20,414 bases of DNA, taken from IMG/VR virus record IMGVR_UViG_3300046517_000815, positions 1-20,414 of that record; one strand, written 5' to 3'. The stretch is from a virus. The translations under genes were made by a program, and so were the position numbers. This document shows, piece by piece, positions 1,630 through 19,478 of the stretch. Position 1 is the stretch's first letter; every line of letters starts with the position of its first letter. The notes beneath the pieces were generated by a model that did no database searches, was not told the DNA's origin, and worked only from the letters and a program-made list of their open reading frames with translations.

Positions 1630-1639
1630 CAGTCTATCA
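1630..1639 (-). promoter_or_regulatory. Candidate phage promoter motif TGATAGACTG (copy 3 of 3) before the fibre gene
   Basis: The minus strand reads TGATAGACTGGAAAGAGAG and then TAATACATG. It shares the 12 bases TGATAGACTGGA with the capsid leader copy. Here the TGA is not a stop codon, so the match is not explained by stop usage. The following AAGAGAG serves as ribosome binding site. Confidence 0.4.
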
Positions 1640-9840: not shown

Positions 9841-10425
9841 TTAATTCCTAGCCCGAATCCAGTCGTCCTCCGGGGAATCCTGTGCGTCCTTTTCGATGGC
9901 GCCGCTGTGCTTCGCGCTCGCGATAGCGACGTCGAAGTCGTCCTTGATGCTCTCTTTCGCTGCGGTGCTGCCAGTGATTTCCTTGCAGGTCTTCATCGCG
10001 AGCGCGCACTCGAGCGCTTCGACAAACGTCGAGTCGTAAAAGTTCGGATCGATGACGTCCGCCAGGTAGCGAATCTCGAGCGGCGAGGCGTCGTCGGTGA
10101 CGACGTAGACGCCGACGCCTTCAGCCGACTCTATCTTCCAGTCGACACGCTGGCCGCTCTCGTCGTCACGGATGAGGCGAATATAGTCGTTCGGCAACAC
10201 GAAGCGGTTGTGCTCGCCCCACAGTGTTTGATCGCCATCCGCGGCGATGCTGTCGCGACGGATCGCGAAGCCCCAATCATACTTGCGAAGAAGCGCCTTG
10301 CGTGTCGGCTCGAACGCAAGGTTCATCGTGCGCGCGTTCGGGTGGTTCTGCGTCAGCGACTCGAGCTTCTGCGAGACGCCGAGACGCTGGAGAGCCGAGT
10401 TCGCGATTTGGACTTTAGATGTCAT
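9841..10425 (-). CDS. Tail tubular protein A (T7 gp11-like)
   Basis: The protein forms the ring between portal and nozzle in podovirus tails. At 194 residues it is close to T7 gp11 (196). Visible features are the N-terminal IANSALQRLG helix, KALLRKYDWGFAIRR around 43-57 ('R---L--Y-W-FA--R' is typical), FVLPNDYIRLI near 75-85 ('LP-D---l'), and LEIRYLADVIDPNFYDSTFVEAL around 115-137, a strong family feature ('l-YiadV-D---fd--F--ala'). Order directly before tail tubular B is as expected. Translation is coupled by ATGA to the upstream gene; the stop TAA is one base from the GTG of tail tubular B. Confidence 0.88.
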   Translation of the reverse strand: MTSKVQIANSALQRLGVSQKLESLTQNHPNARTMNLAFEPTRKALLRKYDWGFAIRRDSIAADGDQTLWGEHNRFVLPNDYIRLIRDDESGQRVDWKIESAEGVGVYVVTDDASPLEIRYLADVIDPNFYDSTFVEALECALAMKTCKEITGSTAAKESIKDDFDVAIASAKHSGAIEKDAQDSPEDDWIRARN

Positions 10426-11597
10426 GTCGCTAGTTGTTGGAGGACAGCGTTCGGCAATCGCGTCGAATACAACCTGACGCTCTTAATTCCAGCAAAAGGT
10501 TGCGTTGCTGACGCCGTGGTGCCAATCCTGATGGTAGTGAGTCCTACAGGAATGGTTCCTGCAACATCCGTTGACAAAGTACCGTTCAGAACCCCGGCCA
10601 TGTCGTTCGCAGCCCACGCAAAAACAGCCTTGTAAGCGGTGTTCACAACAACACCAGCAACGGCGACGGACGATTGCGCGACCGTAGCATCAAGAACCTC
10701 TCCGATCCATGAAGTCGGCGTGCCTGATCCTTGTCGACTGTCTATTTTGTTATTCGCTGTCCCGTCGTCGATGCAAGCAAAGGTCGCCGATGCAAGAACC
10801 GAACTGCTGACGATTGTGTGTTCTTCGTAAAGTGTACCAACCCCGGCAAGCACCACGCCGGCTGACGGATACGTCAACGTGTCCGCATTTCTTGTCACCG
10901 AAATCGTCGTCGTCGGAATCGGCGTACCGGCCGCTGCGCCGTTTTCAAACTGGAACATATCCACAGCGATCTTGTCGCCGCTCGTCCCGAGTACAATCCC
11001 GATCGCCGGATTCAGCACTGACGCGTCTAGTTCGACGCGCGTGTACGTCGAACTATTCAACTGCGCGGAAATCTCGGAAGTGCTTGCGCCCTGCTGAATC
11101 GTCACGGTGCCAGTACCGGTGATGCGCTTGATGAACACCGAAAACGCGGAGAGCGTCGCCGCCTCGGTGATAGTCTGAAGGCACGAGCCATTGATCGCCG
11201 TTGCCGTCAATGACGACGCCGAGTTGGCGGACCCGTCGATCCCGACCTGATCTTTCGCGGCCGTCATGTTGACTTTTGTCCACGACGCGTTCGACGTATC
11301 GCGCGCTTGCAAGCAGAGGTTCGTTCGCGCGCCCTCGGCCAGATAACCGAGGTACGATCCAACCGCAGTCGTGAAGCCTGCGTAGAACGAACGCGCCGTG
11401 CCGCTCGCCACCGAGGCCCATAGTCCGCTCGAGAGCTTCGTCCAGGCGGTCGTGGCGCGCGTGAAGGTCGCAGCGATGCCGCGCTTCGACTCCGTGGTGC
11501 TGACGGCGCCAGCGCCGAGATCGGCGAACAGAAGTTGAAACGTCGGCTCGAAAGTTCCGCCGACGTTGTTCGCCATCATCCTACGACGGCGGTCCAT
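10422..11597 (-). CDS. Head-fibre or lectin-like virion protein, 391 residues
   Basis: Residues 83-109 (LGYLAEGARTNLCLQ, then a WTK stretch) match the 'E-ARTNLL--S----W-K' pattern of phage head spike/fibre-type proteins that carry beta-sandwich modules. The C-terminal part, about 230-391, alternates strands and ends IKSVRLYSTRLPNAVLQQLAT, the usual end of concanavalin/LamG-like domains ('i--vriY---Ls-aelq-l'). It is therefore probably a trimeric fibre or carbohydrate-binding virion protein. The start could be ATG 11597 or the ATGs at codons 7 and 8 (MMANNVGG), which look more natural as a mature N-terminus. The stop overlaps the next ATG (ATGA). Ser/Thr/Ala-rich composition fits an exposed protein. 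Confidence 0.65.
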   Translation of the reverse strand: MDRRRRMMANNVGGTFEPTFQLLFADLGAGAVSTTESKRGIAATFTRATTAWTKLSSGLWASVASGTARSFYAGFTTAVGSYLGYLAEGARTNLCLQARDTSNASWTKVNMTAAKDQVGIDGSANSASSLTATAINGSCLQTITEAATLSAFSVFIKRITGTGTVTIQQGASTSEISAQLNSSTYTRVELDASVLNPAIGIVLGTSGDKIAVDMFQFENGAAAGTPIPTTTISVTRNADTLTYPSAGVVLAGVGTLYEEHTIVSSSVLASATFACIDDGTANNKIDSRQGSGTPTSWIGEVLDATVAQSSVAVAGVVVNTAYKAVFAWAANDMAGVLNGTLSTDVAGTIPVGLTTIRIGTTASATQPFAGIKSVRLYSTRLPNAVLQQLAT

Positions 11598-12585: not shown

Positions 12586-12601
12586 GCTTCTCCCCGATAC
12601 G

Positions 12602-12626
12602 CCCCGACGCGCGCGGCGCGCCGGGG
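12602..12626 (-). terminator. GC-rich hairpin after the cement gene (attenuator or RNA-stability stem)
   Basis: On the minus strand CCCCGGCGCG pairs with CGCGTCGGGG around a five-base loop: ten pairs, one of them G-U. No U tract follows, so it is not a classical intrinsic terminator. It sits between the abundant capsid/cement genes and the lower-level downstream genes, where a partial terminator or a 3'-end stabiliser would be useful. Confidence 0.4.
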
Positions 12627-12637
12627 TAGTTCAGCCC

Positions 12638-13153: not shown

Positions 13154-14047
13154 TTAGATCTGGTCGTCGCACTGGATGCGGATCTGCTTGCCCAGTTGGG
13201 TGCGGGTCGCGCCCAAGGTCATGCAGAGATACACCTGGTTCGCGTAGGACTTGTCCGCGCGCGGCCCGATCTGCGTCATCAGGTCTTTCCAGAGGCCCAT
13301 GTACATGCCCGACTTGAGCCACACCGGGATCAGGCGGTTGCCCGACGTGATCGTGAGCCGCTCGGTCAGGATGAAGTCGACGCCCATGAAGCGCTTGACC
13401 TTGCCGTTTTCGAGGACTGCGCTGTTGCTGTAGTCCTTGTTGACGACCTGGATTTCCTTCAGGAGCGAGTCGTGCTCGTAGCTCGAGATGGCGCCGTACA
13501 CCGGCTCCATCAATTCGCCCTTGTTCGCCGTCATCAGGAGGCGGATCGCGTTCTGGAGCTTCGCGACGTTGAGCGCCGAGGCCGTGCCGCCGGTGTTGAC
13601 ACCGACGTCATAGGCGCCCGAGCCGAGCGTGCCGAAGGACTCGCTGGTCGTGCCGTTCTCGCCGGTGAAGTTGGTGCCGAAGATCGCCGTCAGAATGACG
13701 TCGTCCTTGGCACGGTTCATCGCCGCGGAGCCGGCCCGCGCATACGGGCTGGTGAGTTCGATGATGGCGCGAAGCTGGTCTTCGTTGTCGATGAGCGAAG
13801 CCCACTCGTAGTCGAGCGGGAAAACCCACCGCTTGTCCTGCGAGAGATCGAGCAACGGGGTGTCGGCGTGCCGGCTCACCTTCAACTGCGCGGTGGCGGA
13901 ACCGAACTGTTCGACGACCGACGCGGCCTTGCCGACGTGCGAGCCGACGGTGACTGCGCTGGCGAGGCGCGAACCTTCCTGCTGGAGCAGGAGTTCGACG
14001 TTCGCTTTGTACTGCTGTACTGATGCTACGGTGATGGTATCCGGCAT
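13154..14047 (-). CDS. Major capsid protein (BPP-1 Bbp17-like)
   Basis: The 297-residue product has the pattern of podovirus HK97-fold capsid proteins of the BPP-1 type. Notable segments are VQQYKANVELLLQQEGSRL (residues 10-28, N-arm), then VGSHVGKAASVVEQFG, the 'RWVFPLDYEWASLIDNEDQL' region around 73-92, and NRAKDDVILTAIFGTNFTGENG near 110-131, which would include the E-loop/A-domain parts. The C-terminal part has GVDFILTERL and AVYL-like strands typical of these capsids. It follows scaffold and is followed by a small cement-like gene, the standard order. A GGGAGA site lies seven bases before the ATG. There is no sign of an N-terminal prohead protease site. Confidence 0.88.
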   Translation of the reverse strand: MPDTITVASVQQYKANVELLLQQEGSRLASAVTVGSHVGKAASVVEQFGSATAQLKVSRHADTPLLDLSQDKRWVFPLDYEWASLIDNEDQLRAIIELTSPYARAGSAAMNRAKDDVILTAIFGTNFTGENGTTSESFGTLGSGAYDVGVNTGGTASALNVAKLQNAIRLLMTANKGELMEPVYGAISSYEHDSLLKEIQVVNKDYSNSAVLENGKVKRFMGVDFILTERLTITSGNRLIPVWLKSGMYMGLWKDLMTQIGPRADKSYANQVYLCMTLGATRTQLGKQIRIQCDDQI

Positions 14048-14196
14048 TGCCGTCTCCCGAAAAATTTGATACGTCAGTTTGCACCGATCAGGGCTGGTGC
14101 CGCCTGGCGTATCCCTTTCGGGGGCCGGATGTGGGCTGCGTTACTTGCGGGGGCGAACTACAACCGTGTCCGCACGCCTACCACGACTCCAGTCTA
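14048..14196 (-). other. Capsid 5' leader, 148-149 bases without a gene
   Basis: This is the longest non-coding gap in the window. It starts with the shared motif and ends in a GGGAGA ribosome binding site before the capsid ATG. Possible weak stems are GCACC/GGTGC (around 14082-14101) and CCC/GGG around a CGAAA loop (near 14115-14125). No tRNA, known riboswitch or U-tract terminator is recognised. Elsewhere in the window genes overlap or nearly touch, so the retained leader may have a role in capsid mRNA expression or stability. Confidence 0.5.
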
Positions 14197-14199
14197 TCA
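14190..14199 (-). promoter_or_regulatory. Candidate phage promoter motif TGATAGACTG (copy 2 of 3) before the capsid gene
   Basis: The minus strand reads TGATAGACTGGA, with its TGA serving as stop of the 59-residue gene. The same 12 bases recur at 1628-1639 before the fibre gene, and a close variant stands after the terminase. It begins the capsid leader, where a dedicated promoter for abundant capsid would make sense. No convincing -35 box was found. Confidence 0.4.
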
Positions 14200-14376
14200 C
14201 AACAGTGCATTGACCCCTTCCGTCGGCTTTTTCTCACCAAGCACCCACTCGGCAAACTTCTGAGCCGATTGAAGAACTGCCGCCGCATGGCCGTCGTTGT
14301 GGACGCCATGCGCGCCGGGCTGCGCCGCCGCCTCGAGGCAGCGCATCCGAATCTCAGTTTTCGAATCGACCGTCAC
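14197..14376 (-). CDS. Small phage protein, 59 residues, GTG start coupled to scaffold
   Basis: The frame starts at GTG 14376, which overlaps the scaffold TGA (GTGA); the longer upstream reading frame would overlap the scaffold by over 100 bases and has a shadow-like Arg/Gly-rich start. From the GTG the product reads (M)TVDSKTEIRMRCLEAAAQP, then a His/Asn-rich turn, then VLQSAQKFAEWVLGEKK. The pattern 'K-EIR-RCLE-A' plus 'A--F--WVL' resembles a short helical protein commonly found between scaffold and capsid genes in podoviruses, recalled without a name. It is probably two helices. Its stop TGA opens the motif at 14190-14199. Confidence 0.65.
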   Translation of the reverse strand: MTVDSKTEIRMRCLEAAAQPGAHGVHNDGHAAAVLQSAQKFAEWVLGEKKPTEGVNALL

Positions 14377-19468: not shown

Positions 19469-19478
19469 CAGTGTATCA
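19469..19478 (-). promoter_or_regulatory. Candidate phage promoter motif TGATACACTG (copy 1 of 3)
   Basis: On the minus strand the terminase stop TGA opens the motif TGATACACTG, followed by TCAGGGAG and then the ATG at 19454. Variants with TGATAGACTG lie at 14190-14199 and 1630-1639, also in intergenic gaps. The part CACTGTCAGGGAG loosely resembles single-subunit phage polymerase promoters (T7 has CACTATAGGGAG). Read as an extended -10 box it would place the transcript start within or next to the ribosome binding site, which argues against an ordinary sigma-70 promoter. Function is inferred only. Confidence 0.35.

Follow-up and report, generated by a model that had tools for sequence, protein, structure and literature searches.

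Candidate extended -10 promoters and a conserved folded capsid leader in an environmental phage sequence

The IMG/VR virus record IMGVR_UViG_3300046517_000815 (20,414 bases; hereafter the window) represents part of a phage genome only. A motif, TGATASACTG, stands at three of its gene junctions, and is best read, from its form and placement in the window and in related phages, as the core of an extended -10 element (TRTGnTAnACT) for the host RNA polymerase. Behind the copy preceding the major capsid protein gene lies a predicted leader RNA of ~137 nt, the more unusual feature and one absent from the first-pass annotation of this DNA, whose secondary structure is conserved with compensatory changes. 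One strand of the leader is complementary to the Shine-Dalgarno region of the capsid gene, which suggests translational control of capsid synthesis. We consider this account as a whole, with extended -10 promoters and a folded capsid leader acting on translation, to be probable.

The junction motif as a candidate host promoter

TGATASACTG was matched exactly three times in the window (1630-1639, 14190-14199 and 19469-19478), each time on the minus strand, which is the coding strand and carries all genes of the window; every feature described below lies on this strand. Neither 100 dinucleotide shuffles of the window nor the window itself searched with the reversed control pattern yielded a match. 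The gene list employed left 318 nt (1.6% of the window) uncovered, and 10-mer positions with at least seven uncovered bases made up 1.4% of the window, yet all three copies fell among them (P ~3e-6). The junction placement proposed in the first-pass annotation was thus confirmed, as were the 12 identical bases (TGATAGACTGGA) common to the copies at 14190 and 1630 and the double use of the motif's TGA as the preceding stop codon in two copies. One of these stops belongs to the terminase gene (19478) and the other (14199) to a small ORF of 59 aa with a GTG start (14197..14376) between a scaffold-type gene and the capsid gene, which showed a weak phrog_993 match and has its stop codon within the promoter. 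The gap before the capsid gene (13154..14047; phrog_3437, E 8e-60) proved smaller than previously taken: the 325-nt stretch contains this small ORF, and the real gap is 149 nt.

All three sites carry TG at -15/-14, one base 5' of a TAnnnT hexamer. The published extended -10 motif is T-17 R-16 T-15 G-14 (PMC7403470), and its T-17 and purine-16 are complete at the capsid site and partial or missing at the other two. At the capsid/tail block, the promoter spans 14190..14201 with TGTG (14201-14198), an A and the hexamer TAGACT (14196-14191), from which we infer a transcription start at ~14184, promoters of this class being expected to start ~7 nt past the hexamer. The site of the small-gene/portal block (TGATACACT, 19469..19478) has its TG inside the terminase stop, a predicted +1 at ~19463 and a leader of ~9 nt, while the probable promoter before the fibre gene (TGATAGACT, 1630..1639) has a predicted +1 at ~1624 and a leader of ~10 nt. 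A weight-matrix scan of the window returned only four sites, three of which were the motif copies. The fourth high-scoring match (TGGTACACT, 10831-10839) lies inside gene 10422-11597, ~0.4 kb before the next gene start, and may be due to chance. The same scan of four long relatives, for which a crude ORF caller was used, failed to tell junctions apart from the interior of genes.

Portal and capsid searches of IMG/VR provided 132 relative loci, the long relatives measuring ~40-46 kb. Across these loci, TGATANACTG occurred 31 times on the coding strand vs 3 times on the other strand, and most copies lay directly 5' of the capsid gene. Among 54 non-redundant capsid leaders, the box had the consensus TG[AG]TA[TCG]ACT, included the TG in the best-scoring box of 51, and was mostly located 27-33 nt 5' of the first GGACAAG; -17 was T in 34 of 50 capsid promoters of relatives and -16 a purine in 46 of 50. 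At the terminase/small-gene junction, TGnTAnnnT was found within ~20 nt of the stop codon in 30 of 34 unique relatives, compared with 0.96% of random windows, and the TGA stop itself was reused as the TG in 17 of those 30. The strict 10-mer first described is therefore too strict a unit, and TGnTAnnnT is the one that relatives conserve. Likewise, the block division of the late genes by these sites, as proposed earlier, applies to the portal and capsid blocks, where placement is kept across relatives in the extended -10 form, but not to the fibre site, which is not conserved. In three relatives (L057, L063 and L164), the start codon at the terminase/small-gene junction follows the -10 very closely, and the message may be leaderless.

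The missing -35 signal is consistent with the extended -10 class; TTGACA was present upstream in a few relatives (L026 and L027), and a terminator-like hairpin with a T-run was located just 5' of the box in several (L022, L023 and L123). The strictness of the motif within the window and the missing -35 element could also point to recognition by a phage regulator, or by a single-subunit RNA polymerase of the phage, with no host -10 element involved. This alternative appears highly improbable, given that the motif varies among relatives in the manner of -10 hexamers (TATACT, TATAAT, TACAAT and TATCAT) and that no PF00940 gene, the mark of phage single-subunit RNA polymerases, was found in eight relatives. 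A promoter for a phage RNA polymerase was accordingly ruled out: the search returned 0 of 8 relatives while its T7 control was positive, the genome in the window itself being incomplete. The related pelagiphage Skadi also has no single-subunit RNA polymerase (PMC10504331). On the evidence above, we take these sites to be host promoters. In itself, the motif falls into an ordinary, already known promoter class. Among known systems, the middle/late promoters of Thermus phage P23-45 come closest, in that they too are extended -10 promoters of the sigma-70/sigma-A type and serve late phage genes (PMC7403470). The present sites differ in their hexamer consensus, TAnACT, and in a TG that is often borrowed from a stop codon; no gp39-like factor was identified, none having been sought.

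Apart from these sites, the 52-nt gap at 12586-12637 holds a GC-rich inverted repeat (CCCCGGCGCGCCGCGCGCGTCGGGG) that none of the analyses explained.

Structure and conservation of the capsid leader

The leader (14048..14184) begins at the predicted +1 and ends directly 5' of the start codon. Its first part, domain I (14131..14184), consists of an outer helix (GTGG/CCAC and GCGT/ACGC) around the module I hairpin, with a non-redundant z of -7.8 for the module I flanks, and the predicted +1 coincides with the first pair of this outer helix. Module I (14147..14173) reads GCGG-ACAC-GG...CC-C-CCGC, with the internal loop on its 5' side, and has the general form GCGG-ACAA-GG...CC-C-CCGC. Module II (14106..14126; GGC-C-CCC-GAAA-GGG-ATAC-GCC, in general GGC-C-CCC...GGG-AYAA-GCC) has the same internal loop in permuted order, with the other end open, so that a GG-AYAA-G / C internal-loop hairpin occurs twice in the leader. 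They are followed by the P3 hairpin (14081..14100; GCACC/GGTGC), which has a conserved AGCC in its loop, and by the Shine-Dalgarno region (TTTTTCGGGAG, 14054..14064). The loop letters GGAYAAG and AGCC are near-invariant.

A covariance model (R1) built from 24 sequences matched the window, itself a training sequence, at 14195-14062 with 91.9 bits (E 1.5e-30), and gave 67 hits over the 100 sources searched, including distant ones outside the training set. Long relatives with strong hits had one full-length strong hit per genome, located before the capsid gene. Over 60 distinct rows, 98.7% of the cells in the leader helices were paired and 11 of 17 pairs changed on both sides; two-sided changes numbered 124 cells, compared with 24 in shuffles uncorrected for the tree. 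Counts of this sort are inflated by the fitting of the alignment to the structure. The covariation score of 0.363 fell to 0.03 when the partner was slid by one base, with a maximum of 0.056 over the slid partners. In the P3 helix (helix 5), all five pairs changed on both sides, and its covariation was already visible in the plain MAFFT alignment A2. These alignments thus point to a conserved secondary structure with compensatory changes upstream of the capsid gene.

A known RNA family was ruled out, Rfam being silent on the leader at the gathering cut-off and at E up to 5, and on the leaders of the relatives. A description of the leader was not found in the open-licence literature either; the leader is a structured RNA family missing from Rfam and undescribed in the papers searched, of a known general kind (cis-regulatory leader). 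It was absent from pelagiphage isolates of the HTVC010P type, BcepC6B and other phages that carry related proteins; MW202898 had a degenerate module hairpin, and the phage collection searched held no near-identical isolates.

Alternative pairing and the possible role of the leader

The module II strand is complementary to the Shine-Dalgarno region, and the complementarity is kept while the letters change, as in CCGUAAG/CUUACGG of L130 and, for the module II strand and the Shine-Dalgarno region, respectively, CCGAAGUUUGGG/CCUAAACUUCGG of L082 and CCUUUUUCAAAAAG/CUUUUUGAAAAGG of L118. When own partners were compared with swapped ones, z was -12 over all leaders and -8.1 over 30 non-redundant leaders, while the module I control gave -2.4 and -2.1, respectively. 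Single-sequence folding favoured the form in which the Shine-Dalgarno region is hidden by a median of 9.7 kcal/mol. At the level of sequence comparison, this alternative pairing is well supported.

The mechanism we propose is as follows. A sigma-70-type RNA polymerase of the host would read TRTGnTAnACT with little or no -35 element, so that one motif copy would initiate the portal block, another the capsid/tail block and the fibre copy probably a third; placing the TG in the preceding TGA stop would let promoters fit a genome with almost no gaps. The transcript from the capsid promoter would begin with the conserved leader, which could form the internal-loop hairpins of modules I and II during its synthesis. 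Once the leader is complete, module II and the strand following it could re-pair with the Shine-Dalgarno region into a long rod that would hide the latter in the cell. Translational control is the most likely role: a factor binding the modules, the existence and direction of action of which we infer, would keep module II formed and release the ribosome site.

Several observations weigh against parts of this account. The TGnTAnnnT box is missing at the terminase junction of the closest long relative (the contig of L004/L172). The TTGACA match in the leaders of relatives is no better than in shuffled sequence, and for this reason an unknown activator could be needed. At the fibre junction, the internal virion protein is in most relatives followed directly by a different gene, and the TGATATAAT box was found only in the distant L116. 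As regards the leader, the shuffle controls carry no correction for the tree, and part of the pairing signal may reflect shared ancestry because the module I control is itself slightly negative (z ~-2). With module II enforced, the folding predictions gave a Shine-Dalgarno region that was not clearly more accessible (median unpaired 0.31 vs 0.21), which weakens a simple on/off picture.

Other roles can be envisaged for the leader. Hairpins at the start of a transcript can protect mRNA, and the leader might merely stabilise the 5' end or space the start codon with no regulation, in line with the predicted +1 at the first pair of the outer helix; the near-invariant loop letters and the covarying alternative pairings exceed the needs of a simple protective stem, and we regard this role as improbable. 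A comparably low probability is given to a cis-acting antitermination RNA, situated 5' on the late transcript, that would load onto RNA polymerase and allow read-through of the long tail operon. In its favour, the modules stand just 3' of a promoter ahead of ~12 kb of late genes, the occurrence of the module before different capsid families would fit a universal host target such as RNA polymerase, and HK022 putL likewise comprises two stem-loops, of ~70 nt, where a long phage transcript begins (PMC9378689). However, the present leader precedes late rather than early genes, no common sequence module was found in the scanned 6-kb HK022 stretch (not checked to include put), and such a role would leave unexplained both the module II / Shine-Dalgarno pairing and the modules in the coding starts of scaffold genes. 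The leader may instead be a protein operator, with capsid protein or scaffold in excess binding the modules and repressing its own translation. The leader stands before capsid genes in nearly every case, and T4 gp32 shows that a phage protein can bind a structured leader (PMC3014915), but this reading is also unlikely, if somewhat less so than the preceding two, as the module precedes phrog_3437, phrog_9953 and a fibre gene, for which a single capsid protein is an unlikely common ligand.

Translational control through the alternative pairing has partial parallels in known systems. The T4 gene 32 pseudoknot is also a folded element upstream of the ribosome site of a phage gene (PMC3014915); its fold differs, and the leader studied here contains a repeated internal-loop module and can base-pair with its own Shine-Dalgarno region. 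Riboswitch-type leaders, which have mutually exclusive folds, are comparable in that sequestration of the ribosome site would here compete with formation of a local hairpin; the present leader has no Rfam family match.

Wider occurrence of the hairpin module

A search with the module II pattern matched 113 IMG/VR stretches, from which 65 loci were newly fetched. In 50 of the 65, the module lay directly before the same capsid family; some of the remaining matches are due to chance. Modules were also observed before a second major head protein family, phrog_9953 (an assignment covering the scanned loci L247, L292 and L315), and before a fibre-like gene (L260). Different capsid families thus share the module, which makes the capsid protein unlikely as its common ligand. 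In seven loci (L234, L247, L280, L292, L304, L315 and L327), modules, often arrayed, precede a different head protein type, and some of these modules follow closely on a TGnTAnnnT box. Burkholderiales prophages whose capsids share 38-41% identity contain hairpins that are somewhat alike, with a variant loop.

Modules were further found inside the first codons of scaffold-type genes (phrog_3927 and phrog_3742), where they encode AP[DE]xGQA repeats; the loci are L220, L227, L239, L267, L273, L308, L314, L317 and L318. One frame was used in 16 of 18 of these modules and another in two (GGACAAGC shifted). The shifted frame of GGACAAGC hints at selection at the RNA level, while for scaffold coding starts that mostly keep one frame, RNA-level and peptide-level selection are not separable.

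We tentatively propose, as a possibility that we rate below even chances, that the GG-AYAA-G / C hairpin is a novel and mobile module of RNA regulation. It would occur singly or in arrays, with its strands in either order, where the capsid, scaffold and fibre messages of different tailed phages begin, and would be read by one common factor (a host protein, RNA polymerase or a small ligand) that sets the output of virion genes.

Compact phages without an RNA polymerase of their own must time and balance their virion proteins using very little non-coding DNA. The present analysis offers a concrete picture of how this might be achieved, with stop codons that double as parts of promoters and a capsid message headed by a conserved folded leader. 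This leader family occurs across many environmental phages, and its alternative pairing is clear and open to test. Should different capsid families indeed share the module, this would point to a common factor controlling the genes of head assembly.
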